From NCBI GenBank assembly GCA_947460875.1, contig CANHGR010000011.1, positions 1 to 61,520 of the forward strand: a DNA stretch of 61,520 nt, in the 5' to 3' direction. A model generated the notes under the pieces. The model did no database searches. It saw only the letters and a list, made by a program, of their open reading frames with translations, and was not told where the DNA came from. Both the position numbers and the translations under genes were made by a program. The stretch is from Sphingobacteriaceae bacterium. GTDB lineage: Bacteria; Bacteroidota; Bacteroidia; Sphingobacteriales; Sphingobacteriaceae. Below, piece after piece: positions 1,614 to 7,247 of the stretch (positions are counted from its first letter, which is position 1; each line of letters opens with the position of its first letter).

Positions 1614-2918
1614 CTAGCCCATCAAATAGTTTTTGAACGAGGCAAAATCAGTTCCTAGGCTATCAGCCTTTTTTGGCTTGCCTTCCAAGTCTTTCACTTG
1701 TTCAGGAATAACGATAGATTTCAAAATCTCATCTGGAAAAATATCGGGGAATTTACAGGGATGTGCCGTTGCTAAAAATATTGTTGCTGCGTCATCGTCG
1801 GGATGATCCCCCTGCCATTTTTGTGTTCCTAACCATGCTATCGCAGTATGCGGACAAGCAACATAATTATACGCTTTATAAATATGCTTGATAGCACGTA
1901 AAGTCTCCTCGTCCGTAAAACTGTACGCCGTAATCAGTTTAATTAACTCAGAGGGATCCTCATTGAAGAGATCCATAATCCGAACCCAGTTACTCGGATT
2001 GCCAACATCCATCGCGTTTGAATAAGTCTGAACAGATGGCATTGGCTCGTAGTTTCCAGTTGCTAAAAACCTAGGAACGGTATCATTAATGTTTGTAGAA
2101 GCAATAAATTGCCTAACCGGCAGGCCTAGCTTCCAAGCTAAAAATCCGGCACCTATATTGCCAAAATTACCACTCGGCACAGAGAAAACAACCTCGTGCT
2201 TACCTATTCTCAATAGCTGAGCATAAGCGTTAAAATAGTAGAAAGTCTGCGGAATCAACCTGGCAATATTAATCGAGTTAGCAGAAGTTAGTCGGTATTT
2301 TTTATTCAGCTCATTATCACCAAAAGCTTGCTTTACCAGTGCCTGGCAATCGTCAAATGTACCATCGATCTCAATCGCTCTGATGTTTTCACCGTTGGTA
2401 GTGAGTTGAAGCTCTTGTATAGGACTAACTTTACCCTTGGGGTAAAGAATGGTAACCAGTGTATTCGGAACGCCCAAAAAACCAAGGGCAACGGCACCAC
2501 CGGTATCTCCTGAAGTAGCGACCAGCACGTTTAGAGTTTTCTCTCCTTCTTCCAGAAAATATGACATGACGCGACTCATGAACCTTGCTCCGAAATCCTT
2601 AAAGGCTAAAGACGGACCATGAAAAAGTTCCAGCACATAGGAATTTTCTCCTACGAGGATAATTGGTGCCGGAAAATTGATAGAATCGTCAATAATTTGT
2701 TTTAAATCCGCGGACGGGATATCACCCTGCAACAAAGTTTCTGCTACCTTAAAGGCAATATCCTGTAAAGAGTATGTATCGAGATCTTTAATGAAATCAG
2801 CATCCAACGCTGGTATTTCATGCGGCATATATAACCCCTTATCCGCCGGAAGGCTGTTAAAAACAGCTTCTTTAAAAGACACTTCCAAGGCAGGGTTATT
2901 GGTACTGTATAATTTCAT
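1614..2918 (-). CDS. thrC: Threonine synthase
   Basis: 434 residues. It converts O-phosphohomoserine to threonine with pyridoxal phosphate. The PLP lysine is Lys107 in HGPSLAFKDFGARFM, the signature of the long threonine synthase class. The phosphate-binding stretch is near VATSGDTGGAVA, and a Ser/Gly-rich VPSGNFGNIGAGF loop follows. The N-terminal MKLYSTNNPALEVSFKEA is typical of the family, and length is normal. The gene overlaps or abuts thrB (thrB ends at 2920, two bases before this start) and is third in a thrA-thrB-thrC order, so expression should depend on the leader upstream of thrA. Confidence 0.95.
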   Translation of the reverse strand: MKLYSTNNPALEVSFKEAVFNSLPADKGLYMPHEIPALDADFIKDLDTYSLQDIAFKVAETLLQGDIPSADLKQIIDDSINFPAPIILVGENSYVLELFHGPSLAFKDFGARFMSRVMSYFLEEGEKTLNVLVATSGDTGGAVALGFLGVPNTLVTILYPKGKVSPIQELQLTTNGENIRAIEIDGTFDDCQALVKQAFGDNELNKKYRLTSANSINIARLIPQTFYYFNAYAQLLRIGKHEVVFSVPSGNFGNIGAGFLAWKLGLPVRQFIASTNINDTVPRFLATGNYEPMPSVQTYSNAMDVGNPSNWVRIMDLFNEDPSELIKLITAYSFTDEETLRAIKHIYKAYNYVACPHTAIAWLGTQKWQGDHPDDDAATIFLATAHPCKFPDIFPDEILKSIVIPEQVKDLEGKPKKADSLGTDFASFKNYLMG

Positions 2919-2919
2919 T

Positions 2920-3855
2920 TTAATCTAAGATCTTTGGACCATTCGCATTGATGGTAGAGATGTACTGATGGCTTTCGGTATCAAGCCATAAAAGATGTTT
3001 TCGCACAGCAGCAACAACATTGTTGGCAGTTTGTTCATCCCTACAAAAGGAAAAAACTGATGGACCAGAGCCTGAAATTCCAAAAGATACAGCGCCTTGT
3101 TCAAGAGCAAGCTCTCGTAGTCTATAAAAATCAGGTATAAGAATTGACCGTACCGGTTCGATAAGTACATCTTGCATGCTTCTGCCAATCAAATCGATAT
3201 CCTTCATGAAGAGTCCGCTCACCAATCCGGCAACGTTGCCCCACTGAGTAACAGCGTCTTTCAATAAAACCTTGCTTCTAATTAAAGCACGGGCATCGCG
3301 CGTAGGAACATCAATTTCCGGAAACACAATTGCACAATATAAATCTTCAGGATAAGGTAATCTGATGATGTCCAACGGCTCATAGCTCCTTACCAAAACA
3401 AAGCCTCCAAGTAGCGCCGGCGCAACATTATCTGCATGACCGTATCCACATGCTAGCTCCTCGCCTTTCATTGCAAAAGGAACAAGTTCATCCTGAGTTA
3501 ACAGATTGCCCATTAGGGCATTAATTGCAAATAATCCTGCAACGGTACTCGCAGAGCTTGAGCCAAGTCCGCTGCCAATTGGCATCTTTTTATGGAGTTT
3601 AATATCCACACCGACATCTTCCCGACCAATATGTTTAAGATAATACTGAACACTTGCACTAACTGTATTTTTTGCTGCGTCCTTAGGTAATCTACCATCA
3701 TCTCCGGTAATCTCCAAGATACGAACGTCGGTCCTATCTGTAAGATGCATCTCTACTTCATCCCCCGGCGCATCAACAGCAAAACCTAATACATCAAATC
3801 CGCAAACAACATTCGCAACGGTAGCCGGTGCAAAAACTTTTATAGATTCGCTCAT
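2920..3855 (-). CDS. thrB: Homoserine kinase
   Basis: 311 residues, GHMP kinase family. It phosphorylates homoserine with ATP, the step before threonine synthase. The N-terminal VFAPATVANVVCGFDVLG is the GHMP substrate-side motif, and the ATP loop is PIGSGLGSSSAST at residues 92-104. A C-terminal FGISGSGPSVFSF stretch matches GHMP motif 3. It lies between thrA and thrC. The 107-base gap to thrA holds an AT-rich stretch with TTTCGGATT/TTTCGAATCC-like short repeats and no obvious terminator, so cotranscription with thrA is likely. Confidence 0.95.
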   Translation of the reverse strand: MSESIKVFAPATVANVVCGFDVLGFAVDAPGDEVEMHLTDRTDVRILEITGDDGRLPKDAAKNTVSASVQYYLKHIGREDVGVDIKLHKKMPIGSGLGSSSASTVAGLFAINALMGNLLTQDELVPFAMKGEELACGYGHADNVAPALLGGFVLVRSYEPLDIIRLPYPEDLYCAIVFPEIDVPTRDARALIRSKVLLKDAVTQWGNVAGLVSGLFMKDIDLIGRSMQDVLIEPVRSILIPDFYRLRELALEQGAVSFGISGSGPSVFSFCRDEQTANNVVAAVRKHLLWLDTESHQYISTINANGPKILD

Positions 3856-3962: not shown

Positions 3963-6413
3963 TTAATGTGCTCCAACATTGACGAGGTCTGAGAATACCC
4001 CGGCAGCAGTAACTTCCGCCCCAGCACCCGGACCTTTTACTACCATAGGACGTTCGCTATATCGATCGGTAGTAAACGAAATAATGTTATCGCTGCCGGA
4101 TAGCATGTAAAACGGATGATCTTCGCCGACCATTTGCAGGGTGATCGCCGCTTGCCCATTTTCCAATTTACCGATGTAGCGCAATACTCTTCCACCACTT
4201 TGAGCTTCATTTTTCAACTTTGCGAAGAATGGCTCATTAGCCTTTAGCTCATTATAAAACTCTGCAACAGTTTGAGCGTCAAGACAAGATTGAGGTAGCA
4301 TATTTTCTATTTCAATATCAGACGGCTCTAACTCATGTCCGGCGTCACGTGCAAGAATAAGCATTTTACGCATAAAATCTGTTCCTTTTAAATCATCACG
4401 AGGATCCGGTTCTGTATAGCCTTTTTCCTGGGCCATTTTTACGATATCGTAAAAAGTAGCATCGCCTTTATAATGATTAAAGATAAAAGAGATCGTACCC
4501 GAAAGCACTGCTTCGATCTTTGATATTCTATCTCCACTAACCATCAGATCTTTAAGCGTACGAATAATTGGCAAACCCGCTCCCACATTGGTTTCATAGT
4601 AAAAATCTACTCCATGTTTTCTGGCGGTATCTCTAAACAGCTTGTATTGGGCGTAGCTGGATGAGTTGCCAATTTTATTGCAGGTTACAATTGAGATATT
4701 CGACTTAAAAATTTCCTCGTAATATCCTATCGGATAACTACTTGCGGTATTGTCGATAAAAACACAATTGGGCAGGTTCATCGCCTTCATACGTTCGATA
4801 AAGGCAGGTAAATCTGCCTTCGCGGTTGACGCATCAAGCTTTTCCTTCCAATTGTCCAGAGGCAAACCATCTTCATTGAATACCATCTTACTGGTATTGC
4901 TAATGCCTGTGACTTTTAGAAGAATACCATTATGCTGTTTCAGAAAATCGATATGTTCATGAATTTGTCTGAATAATGTCTTGCCAATATTTCCGGTTCC
5001 AAGGCAAAATACGTGAAGAGTCTTTTTAAATTCAGTAAAGAAATCATCATGCACCGCATTCAATGCTTTTGCTAAATCCTGCTTAGAAATTACTACAGAA
5101 ATGTTATACTCCGAAGAGCCTTGAGCTATCGCTCTTACATTAATACCGTTACGCCCAAGCGCATGGAAAAGCTTGCCAGAAATGCCCGGAGTCTGTTTCA
5201 TATTTTCGCCAACAATGGCTAAAATTGAAAGCTTATCTTCGATAATAGGACTCTCTAATTTTCGAGCATTGATCTCTAATTCAAACTCTTGTTCAATCAT
5301 CTGCTTTGCTTTTAGCGCATCCGCGGGATGAACAGCAAAGGTGATGCTGTGTTCTGATGATGATTGGGTGATTAAAATAACATTAATCTGTTCTCTAACA
5401 AGCAAAGAAAAAAGTCTGCCGCTAAAACCTGCCTTGCCCACCATTCCACTTCCAGCGAGGTTAATAATACTGATATCATTTATCGATGAGATCCCTTTTA
5501 TGGGTAGGTTAGAAGGACTTACAGCATGCTTGATCACCGTGCCCGGATAGTCCGGTTGAAAAGTATTTTTTATAACAATCGGAATTTTTTTCAAAAAGGC
5601 CGGAATCATTGTCGGCGGATAAATAACCTTTGCACCAAAAAATGAAAGTTCCATCGCCTCTGTATAAGACAATTCTGCTAACGCGAAAGCCTTTTTGACC
5701 ATCCGCGGATCAGCCGTCATCATTCCATTTACATCGGTCCAAATTTGGATTTCGGTTGCATTCAACGCTGAAGCTAGGATCGCTGCTGTATAATCGCTAC
5801 CTCCGCGACCCAATGTAGTGATCTTCCCGGCGTCATTACTGGCGATAAATCCGGTTACAAAAAATAACTTATCCTTATTCGAGTTATAAAAATTACGAAT
5901 TAGCGTGTCTGTTACATCGGTCTGTATGATTGCCTTACCAAAATTGTCATCGGTCTTAATCAGGTCTGAGGAGTCGACAAAAATGGATTTCGGAAATTCC
6001 TGCTCAGCAATCTTACTGATCATATAAGCAGAGCAACGCTCGCCATAGCTTAAAATAAGGTCCTTTGTCCTTGGAGTCAACTCTTTCAAGCTACTCACAC
6101 CCTGAAGTAGATCTTCTAACTCATTAAAGAATAATTTCAGCTTCGTAAAAACAGGGTTCTGTCTGGATACTCCAATCAATTCTTTGATCACATCAAAATG
6201 TCTTTTCTCAAGTTCAACTAGCTGAGCCGAATAGCTTTTACTGGAAGCAGCGTTTTCAGCCATCTCAACCAACAAGTTTGTAACGCCTCCCATTGCAGAG
6301 AGTACAATGACCGGTGTCTCTGAATCGGAATTTTCCTTTTTAAGGATATCTAATAAGGTCTGGATGCTTTCTACCGAACCCACTGAAGTACCTCCGAATT
6401 TTAAAACTTTCAT
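3963..6413 (-). CDS. thrA: Bifunctional aspartate kinase/homoserine dehydrogenase I
   Basis: 816 residues, the usual length of the fused enzyme. The N-terminal aspartokinase domain (about 1-290) starts MKVLKFGGTSVGSVESI and contains GRGGSDYTAAI. A regulatory region of two ACT domains follows (about 310-455; GKAGFSGRLFSLL and GISGKLFHALGRNGINV). The C-terminal NAD(P)-binding homoserine dehydrogenase domain (about 465-816) begins HVFCLGTGNIGKTLF and has the substrate segment KGTDFMRKMLILARDAGHEL. It catalyses the first and third steps from aspartate toward threonine, and the ACT domains should give feedback control by threonine. It is the first structural gene of the operon, with a transcription attenuator in its leader. 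Confidence 0.96.
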   Translation of the reverse strand: MKVLKFGGTSVGSVESIQTLLDILKKENSDSETPVIVLSAMGGVTNLLVEMAENAASSKSYSAQLVELEKRHFDVIKELIGVSRQNPVFTKLKLFFNELEDLLQGVSSLKELTPRTKDLILSYGERCSAYMISKIAEQEFPKSIFVDSSDLIKTDDNFGKAIIQTDVTDTLIRNFYNSNKDKLFFVTGFIASNDAGKITTLGRGGSDYTAAILASALNATEIQIWTDVNGMMTADPRMVKKAFALAELSYTEAMELSFFGAKVIYPPTMIPAFLKKIPIVIKNTFQPDYPGTVIKHAVSPSNLPIKGISSINDISIINLAGSGMVGKAGFSGRLFSLLVREQINVILITQSSSEHSITFAVHPADALKAKQMIEQEFELEINARKLESPIIEDKLSILAIVGENMKQTPGISGKLFHALGRNGINVRAIAQGSSEYNISVVISKQDLAKALNAVHDDFFTEFKKTLHVFCLGTGNIGKTLFRQIHEHIDFLKQHNGILLKVTGISNTSKMVFNEDGLPLDNWKEKLDASTAKADLPAFIERMKAMNLPNCVFIDNTASSYPIGYYEEIFKSNISIVTCNKIGNSSSYAQYKLFRDTARKHGVDFYYETNVGAGLPIIRTLKDLMVSGDRISKIEAVLSGTISFIFNHYKGDATFYDIVKMAQEKGYTEPDPRDDLKGTDFMRKMLILARDAGHELEPSDIEIENMLPQSCLDAQTVAEFYNELKANEPFFAKLKNEAQSGGRVLRYIGKLENGQAAITLQMVGEDHPFYMLSGSDNIISFTTDRYSERPMVVKGPGAGAEVTAAGVFSDLVNVGAH

Positions 6414-6422
6414 GTTATTTCT

Positions 6423-6459
6423 AAAAAAAAGCGCCCTCCTCTTTTTGGAGGAAGGCGCT
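6423..6459 (-). terminator. thr operon attenuator terminator
   Basis: On the minus strand the arms AGCGCCTTCCT (6459-6449) and AGGAGGGCGCT (6440-6430) form an 11-bp GC-rich stem with one G-T wobble and a short loop. Eight T residues (6430-6423) follow, just before the thrA start. The 5' arm stretch CTTCCTCC (6454-6447) can instead pair with GGAGGGGG (6499-6492) inside the end of the leader reading frame. That gives two mutually exclusive structures, terminator or antiterminator. Confidence 0.88.
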
Positions 6460-6483
6460 ATATGGTTTGTATCAACTATTCCA

Positions 6484-6552
6484 TTACAGAGCCCCCTCCG
6501 AAATTCCGGTAGTGCTTGTTGTAATCGTCATCATTGATCTTTTGATTTGCAT
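6484..6552 (-). CDS. thrL: Threonine/isoleucine-rich leader peptide of the thr operon
   Basis: A 22-codon frame on the minus strand starts at ATG 6552 (or at the paired ATGs 6534/6531) and ends with TAA at 6486-6484. It reads MQIKRSMMTITTSTTGISEGAL. Five Thr and two Ile codons are packed into MTITTSTTGI, much like the ThrL peptide of E. coli. The stop lies a few bases before the antiterminator arm (6499-6492) is cleared. A ribosome reaching the stop would therefore cover that arm and allow the terminator at 6423-6459. A ribosome stalled on uncharged Thr or Ile codons would leave it free to pair and prevent termination. The peptide itself probably has no other role. The thrL name is by analogy in position and content, not shown homology. 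Confidence 0.85.
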   Translation of the reverse strand: MQIKRSMMTITTSTTGISEGAL

Positions 6553-6565
6553 AAGTTTGTTCGCG

Positions 6566-6597
6566 CAAAATAAGCAGTAAATTTTGGAATTAGCAAA
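6566..6597 (-). promoter_or_regulatory. Probable thr operon promoter
   Basis: On the minus strand a -33 box TTTG (6597-6594) is followed after 20 nt by TTATTTTG (6573-6566), one mismatch from the Bacteroidota -7 consensus TAnnTTTG. Transcription would start near 6560, a few bases before the leader peptide. Confidence 0.6.
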
Positions 6598-6661: not shown

Positions 6662-6907
6662 ATGAAAAGTATATTGCTAAAACTTGATGAAAAACTTCTA
6701 GAGGAGACTGAAGTGTATGTAAAAGAATTAAAGATCAGCAGGAATAACTACATCAAAAAGGCTGTGGAACGTTATAACAAACTGATGGATAGAAAAAAGT
6801 TAGAAAAAGAACTGGCTTATGAGTCCTTTATGGTACGCGAAGAGTCTATGGAAGTTTACAAAGCCTTCGAATCAACATTAAATGACGGATTGAAAGATGA
6901 ATATTAA
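6662..6907 (+). CDS. Ribbon-helix-helix antitoxin (MazE/CopG-like)
   Basis: 81 residues starting MKSILLKLDEKLLEETE. I chose the ATG at 6662 because it follows the promoter palindrome and gives a classic N-terminal ribbon (KSILLKLDEKLLE) plus two helices (KISRNNYIKKAVERYNKLM), the fold of CopG/MetJ-type DNA-binding antitoxins. A longer frame upstream would run through the promoter. The charged C-terminus (SMEVYKAFESTLNDGLKDEY) is the usual toxin-neutralising tail. Its last 11 bases overlap the start of the toxin gene, which implies translational coupling. The family role is clear; the exact RHH subfamily is not. Confidence 0.8.
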   Translation: MKSILLKLDEKLLEETEVYVKELKISRNNYIKKAVERYNKLMDRKKLEKELAYESFMVREESMEVYKAFESTLNDGLKDEY

Positions 6908-7247
6908 GCAGTTCGATCTTTGGGTGGCCAACCTTCATCCGGGCAAGGGCAATATTCCAGGAAAGGTCCGTCCGGTAGTTATCCTTCAAACCAATCTACT
7001 GAATAACGCGGGGCATCCAACAACATTAATTTGCCCCCTGACTTCAGACATGACCAAGGAATCAAAAATATTGCGAATAAATATTAGTGCCAATGCACTA
7101 AACGGCTTGGAAAAAGATTCGGCAATTCTCGCAGACCAGATCAGGACAATTGAAAATTTAAAGCTCCTAAACTGTATTGGAAACCTAGAAGAGAAATATC
7201 GTTCGCAGATAAAAAAGTCAATTTTAAGTATTCTTGACCTATCGTGA
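6897..7247 (+). CDS. MazF/PemK-like mRNA interferase toxin
   Basis: 116 residues. The N-terminus FDLWVANLHPGKGNIPGKVRPVVIL is the MazF/PemK beta-barrel signature; its Arg (in KVRPVVIL) is one of the catalytic or RNA-contact residues in the family, and CPLTSD follows as the second conserved block. Members cut single-stranded mRNA at short motifs and stop growth when the antitoxin is degraded. It overlaps the antitoxin by 11 bases and ends one base before the likely rsgA start, so it may be cotranscribed with rsgA. It looks intact. The cut-site preference cannot be read from sequence. Confidence 0.85.
   Translation: MNIKQFDLWVANLHPGKGNIPGKVRPVVILQTNLLNNAGHPTTLICPLTSDMTKESKILRINISANALNGLEKDSAILADQIRTIENLKLLNCIGNLEEKYRSQIKKSILSILDLS

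Follow-up and report, generated by a model that had tools for sequence, protein, structure and literature searches.

Attenuation is a textbook mechanism, and leader-peptide attenuation has already been reported for Bacteroidota. In Escherichia coli, thrL encodes a 21-residue leader peptide in which GGUGCGGGC, located in the last codons after Thr-Thr-Gly, is complementary to GCCCGCACC of the terminator (pairing by eye). The Bacteroid-trp RNA precedes trp genes and includes Trp codons and a terminator. It was described as a cis-regulatory candidate from Bacteroidetes (RF01692; Weinberg 2010, PMC2864571). For Flavobacterium psychrophilum, attenuation by leader peptides in front of amino acid operons is reported on the basis of strong clues (PMC9723704), and short ORFs in long 5′ UTRs of Bacteroides thetaiotaomicron have been likened to leader peptides (PMC7366714); the main texts of these two papers do not name a thr attenuator. 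Attenuators were also surveyed by Lopatovskaya et al. 2010 (as cited in PMC4833913). Our literature search, covering papers accessible without subscription, found no publication naming a thr attenuator of the Sphingobacteriaceae. The Lopatovskaya survey reportedly covers Bacteroidetes/Chlorobi.

The locus described here lies on the minus strand of the window, i.e., the whole 61,520-nt stretch of Sphingobacteriaceae DNA that was analyzed. NCBIfam equivalogs identify the genes downstream, in the order thrA-thrB-thrC, as thrA (bifunctional aspartate kinase/homoserine dehydrogenase I; 3963..6413; NF006959 equivalog, 1036 bits against a cut-off of 726), thrB (homoserine kinase; 2920..3855; TIGR00191, NF002288), and thrC (threonine synthase; 1614..2918; TIGR00260). 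Upstream of them, the minus strand reads, 5′ to 3′, TTTG, 20 nt, TTATTTTG, 13 nt, a 22-codon ORF, a 24-nt spacer, a 12-bp hairpin, and U8, with the thrA ATG ten nucleotides beyond the U8. With a probability of about 0.93, we interpret this element as a ribosome-mediated transcription attenuator of the threonine operon, which would sense charged tRNA-Thr and probably also tRNA-Ile. This reading builds on the observed anatomy, conservation, covariation, and geometry; transcription from the predicted promoter, translation, and regulation in the cell are inferred.

The initial annotation had compared the geometry with classic E. coli thr attenuation, and the layout of thrL does match. Operon and gene order are the same, the Thr/Ile leaders have 21 to 22 codons with a Thr-Thr-Gly motif, and an antiterminator segment from the last leader codons pairs with the terminator 5′ arm. 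The differences lie in sequence and expression signals. Translation in Bacteroidota starts mostly without Shine-Dalgarno sites, and their promoters differ. The window has a Bacteroidota promoter and a different sequence from E. coli thr, and the short distance between the −7 box and the leader ATG (13 nt) leaves little room for a Shine-Dalgarno site. Against the enterobacterial Thr_leader family (RF00506), the window scores 24.8 bits (E 0.012) where the gathering score is 55; it would work like a Thr_leader yet is not a member by Rfam score. The ThrA proteins of the window and E. coli are only about 37% identical, and the latter sits on a long outside branch. Transfer of operon and leader from gammaproteobacteria is unsupported, the E. 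coli protein being about equally distant (35 to 39%) from all Bacteroidota ThrA; the leader of the window may or may not share an ancestor with the enterobacterial one. The Bacteroid-trp RNA serves another operon than thr, and a search of the window with RF01692 gave no match at the gathering score, which places the window outside that family by this measure.

Promoter, leader peptide, and terminator upstream of thrA

The predicted promoter (6566..6597, minus strand) consists of TTTG at 6597-6594, a 20-nt spacer, and TTATTTTG at 6573-6566, and is of the Bacteroidota type. Among 96 distinct loci of relatives, 84 have its pattern, TTG-N19/20-TTACTTTR, in the equivalent position, compared to 0.7 expected from shuffles. 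The putative transcription start would be about 5 nt downstream of the promoter, giving a very short 5′ UTR of about 10 nt. In relatives the −7 box is most commonly 12 to 14 nt from the leader ATG; the 13 nt found in the window fit this spacing, which favors a start at 6552 over the internal ATGs.

The leader ORF (6484..6552, minus strand; ATG at 6552, TAA at 6486-6484) has 22 codons plus the stop and would be translated into MQIKRSMMTITTSTTGISEGAL. It carries the end-product codons characteristic of such leaders, with five Thr (codons 9, 11, 12, 14, and 15) and three Ile (codons 3, 10, and 17) among the 22. A short ORF with at least five Thr in ten codons appeared within 260 nt upstream of thrA in 5 of 2,000 shuffles. 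Thr-rich leaders precede about 98 related thrA loci; these are 16 to 35 residues long, contain runs such as TIITTIITTG, and end at or just after GGAGGAAG. Nearly all of them also have Ile codons, suggesting that the element probably senses both Thr and Ile, by analogy with E. coli.

As in a classic attenuator, an intrinsic terminator lies between the leader and the first gene. The hairpin (6430..6459, minus strand) has 12 pairs and a 6-nt loop (stem 6459-6448/6441-6430) and runs into a U8 tract (6423..6430), the first U of which (6430) also closes the stem. In relatives, the terminator begins 17 to 48 nt from the leader end, its 5′ arm holds CUUCCUCC, and 7 of the 12 pairs show two-sided changes (RNAalifold). 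The 175-nt block as a whole folds at −45 kcal/mol, compared to −32.8 ± 3.9 kcal/mol for shuffles (z = −3.1).

The terminator is the strongest part of the element, and the leader ORF taken alone is a 5-in-2,000 event; both would fit an ordinary intrinsic terminator between genes, next to a Thr-rich ORF that arose by chance. There is no minus-strand gene upstream of the terminator, however, for such a terminator to serve. The upstream neighbors are divergent, so that the terminator can act only on a transcript starting in the gap upstream of thrA. This explanation is refuted by the joint conservation of leader, promoter, segment 2 (see below), and terminator in about 98 loci, and we consider it extremely unlikely.

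The divergent neighbors, on the plus strand at 6662-7247, are a PemK/MazF-like toxin (PF02452) and, upstream of it, a short partner with no Pfam match, probably its antitoxin. From the TTG start listed for it (6584), this partner would extend into the thr promoter, making the ATG at 6662 the likelier start.

The thrA upstream region across the Sphingobacteriaceae

The thrA loci compared were taken from 60 genomes of relatives, from a second collection that contributed 80 loci, and from roughly 270 additional genomes belonging to the class and phylum. Two rows (L028 and L030) proved false and were removed, leaving 98 thrA loci with the same arrangement, some of them near-identical pairs across the two collections. 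Nearly every Sphingobacteriaceae locus with the thrA type of the window has a leader, GGAGGAAG, and a terminator with CUUCCUCC. The window carries all the features that define these loci as class I, i.e., promoter, Thr leader, GGAGGAAG-like segment 2, CUUCCUCC arm, terminator, and class I thrA. The corresponding ThrA proteins, that of the window included, form one clade with 100/100 support.

Aligning thrA upstream regions had been proposed as a check by the initial annotation, and leader Thr/Ile codons, stems, and promoter are indeed conserved across the Sphingobacteriaceae. Its individual claims of a TTTG-20-TTATTTTG promoter, a 22-codon Thr/Ile-rich leader, and an intrinsic terminator with eight T residues hold for the window itself and are borne out in relatives, where the promoter is kept (84/96 loci), the Thr/Ile codons recur across thrA loci of the family, and the terminator stem covaries.

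The Sphingobacteriaceae thr attenuator is a conserved family of its own, absent from Rfam as searched here. It would represent a well-defined conserved attenuator in Bacteroidota, a phylum in which control by coupling of transcription and translation has received little attention, and its approximately 98 aligned members provide a ready test bed. L121, a locus from a different family within the class (ThrA 61% identical), has a terminator and segment 2 of the class I type with a Thr-poorer leader. It falls within the 100/100 ThrA clade and represents either a transfer or a deep branch. A plasmid search with the attenuator of a relative returned no matches.

Predicted antiterminator pairing and ribosome position

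The last leader codons contain segment 2, GGAGGGGG (6492..6499, minus strand), the 5′ arm of the predicted antiterminator; the 3′ arm is segment 3, CUUCCUCC (6447..6454), which also makes up most of the terminator 5′ arm. As in a classic attenuator, the two structures share this arm and are mutually exclusive. In the window, GGAGGGGG (6499-6492) pairs with CTTCCTCC (6454-6447) through eight pairs, two of them G-U. By itself this helix is marginal and not significant, 17 of 200 shuffles being equally good, and its weight therefore comes from relatives. Because several rows of the MAFFT alignment (A1) have segment 2 out of place by two or three bases, the 2:3 pairing was scored sequence by sequence. 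In most loci segment 2 forms 8 to 12 pairs with the terminator 5′ arm, and the complementarity is within the top 5% of shuffles in 82 of 100 scored loci, a set that still contained the false rows L028 and L030.

Changes in the arm are compensated in segment 2 in L020 (GAGGGGAGU with GCUUCCCUC), in L023 (CGAGGGAAGU with GCUUCUCUCG), and in L017 and L019 (CGGGGC with GUCCCG). The core of segments 2 and 3 is nearly invariant, so that only a small number of sequences attest to 2:3 covariation. In most loci the C that ends segment 3 (6447 in the window) sits unpaired in the terminator loop, yet 60 of 65 loci keep it, and in 53 of the 65 a G stands opposite it in the antiterminator. The pair next to the 2:3 core seemed by eye to covary strikingly, but this was not significant (276/5,000; next pair, 893/5,000).

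Three further elements add to the initial description, among them a conserved mini-ORF (see below). Of the remaining two, one is a predicted inner helix extending the antiterminator, formed in the window by AUGG (6481..6484) and CCAU (6462..6465), both on the minus strand, with UGGU:ACCA as the counterpart in Mucilaginibacter and UGUU:AACA-type pairs in other genera. The other is a probable protector, segment 1 (CUACCG; 6507..6512, minus strand), which lies in the Thr-Thr-Gly codons and can pair with CGGAGG of segment 2. Of 72 distinct leaders, 63 have ACC-ACC as their final pair of Thr codons; the earlier ones are mostly ACA, with ACC accounting for 28%. Compared with synonymous-codon permutations, the part of the leader reaching to segment 2 has the more stable fold in 83 of 92 cases (mean, −6.7 versus −5.1 kcal/mol), with only 16 of the 92 folds reaching the lowest tenth of the permutations. 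Relatedness inflates both counts, and we thus call the 1:2 pairing probable.

In the proposed mechanism, with sufficient threonine the ribosome would reach the leader stop and cover segment 2, leaving segment 3 free for segment 4, and the terminator would form before thrA. With threonine scarce, it would stall at the Thr codons and cover segment 1 too; the 2:3 pairing and the inner AUGG:CCAU helix would then form before segment 4 is made, pre-empting the terminator and allowing transcription of thrABC. Without translation, 1:2 pairing would favor termination, the weakest of the three steps.

Positioning of the ribosome was examined by a masking calculation in which the footprint was assumed to end 11 nt downstream of the first base in the A-site codon. 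With a ribosome at any of the Thr codons (9 to 15), 5 to 8 nt or all of segment 2 would remain accessible, and the transcript, as long as segment 4 has yet to be made, is computed to fold into the 2:3 antiterminator; a ribosome at the stop, given the same assumed footprint, covers segment 2 and the 2:3 helix cannot form. By computation, the antiterminator would thus be masked from the stop and not by a stall at the control codons. This supports the earlier suggestion that the leader stop is close enough to the antiterminator arm for masking, just as the 8-bp pairing of 6492-6499 with 6447-6454 that had been put forward is present, with two G-U pairs, and conserved in relatives. At full-length equilibrium the terminator wins (−30.2 versus −24.2 kcal/mol for the antiterminator), meaning that antitermination must be kinetic, during RNA synthesis. 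Known attenuators likewise act while the RNA is being made. Even when no ribosome is present, the transcript as far as segment 3 adopts the antiterminator fold, making the default without translation uncertain.

A terminator with an alternative helix is common to all attenuators, including those in which a protein or a metabolite-binding fold would control termination and the Thr-rich ORF would be incidental. A permissive Rfam scan gave weak, sub-threshold matches to the PyrG, trpB, and PyrR leaders that could point this way, but they are far below the gathering scores; they have mainly a hairpin and a U-tract in common with the window and were discarded. What is conserved upstream is instead a Thr/Ile reading frame, with its stop adjoining segment 2 and with synonymous-codon constraint, and no conserved aptamer-like fold was seen among the aligned relatives. 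Such control is, in our view, very improbable.

The leader stop is followed by a mini-ORF, ATG-GAA-TAG (6476..6484, minus strand), that overlaps it (UAAUG) and reads ATG-GTG-TAA in most relatives. The form NTG-NNN-stop occurs in 81 of 91 distinct spacers after the leader stop, compared to 4.5 expected from shuffles, the start (ATG, TTG, GTG) and the stop (TAA, TAG, TGA) each varying within their own sets. In Pedobacter- and Arcticibacter-like loci, the main leader itself runs in frame into the mini-ORF stop (…MV*). The mini-ORF lies 10 to 11 nt downstream of a Shine-Dalgarno-like GGAGG in segment 2. The inner helix accounts for its UGG part, so that the conservation is partly explained, and the remainder may stem from common descent. 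That the mini-ORF is a second working part, at which the terminating ribosome would be held or reinitiate, keeping segment 2 covered and sharpening termination, seems to us rather unlikely. If true, this would place a working part near a Shine-Dalgarno-like GGAGG in a phylum that otherwise uses few such sites.

The mini-ORF, together with the terminator-less leaders of some relatives (see below), could also suggest that the leader acts through translation, by reinitiation or coupling into thrA, and not through termination. The leader stop is nevertheless 70 nt from thrA in the window and 62 to 229 nt in most relatives, and the covarying intrinsic terminator stands between the two. We regard action through translation as having very little chance of being correct, and retain transcription attenuation as the most likely function of the element.

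Other leaders in the Bacteroidota

Family searches located leader peptides also upstream of trpE, ilvD, and hisG of Sphingobacteriaceae, which suggests that attenuation would be routine in this family. The genome of the window itself has a MTLTIYTNKWCWPANVLRNGIIC leader with a terminator before trpE (L259) and a MASVLVYSYYFILTLLVLKQNQAL leader with a terminator before the ilvD operon (L228). The trpE leaders of most relatives contain WWW; no match to RF01692 at the gathering score was found in the Sphingobacteriaceae trpE loci scanned.

Within the Bacteroidota, there is a contrast between one thrA lineage that uses a terminator and others with Thr leaders lacking a visible one. The latter (L130-L133, L136, L140, L143, L152, L161, L162, L166, L168, and L170; for example L132:4074-4156, minus strand) are Thr-rich, with ACCCC-NNN-GGGG around the leader stop followed by a conserved CATAT(A/C)ATCC; an intrinsic terminator was not seen at any of these loci. 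Among 148 genomes, the exact pattern is present in 7, once in each; every copy lies upstream of thrA, and none is reversed. No Rfam match was obtained for these leaders, which are possibly a more novel finding than the attenuator of the window. A structure for class II is not claimed; RNAalifold gives only two pairs on the class II alignment.

Upstream of hisG (e.g., L207, L213, L215, and L274-L293), there are leaders with His runs. A few nucleotides past their stop comes TATGTTTCTACGTGAARC, a motif capable of forming a small hairpin; no obvious terminator was seen at these loci. Of 101 family genomes, 25 carry this motif, each in a single copy, and it lies at hisG wherever both positions were available. 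Like their Thr counterparts, these terminator-less His leaders, located outside the window, may be more novel than the window attenuator. A similar motif, TTTCTACGTGA, follows the thr leaders of L155 and L156.
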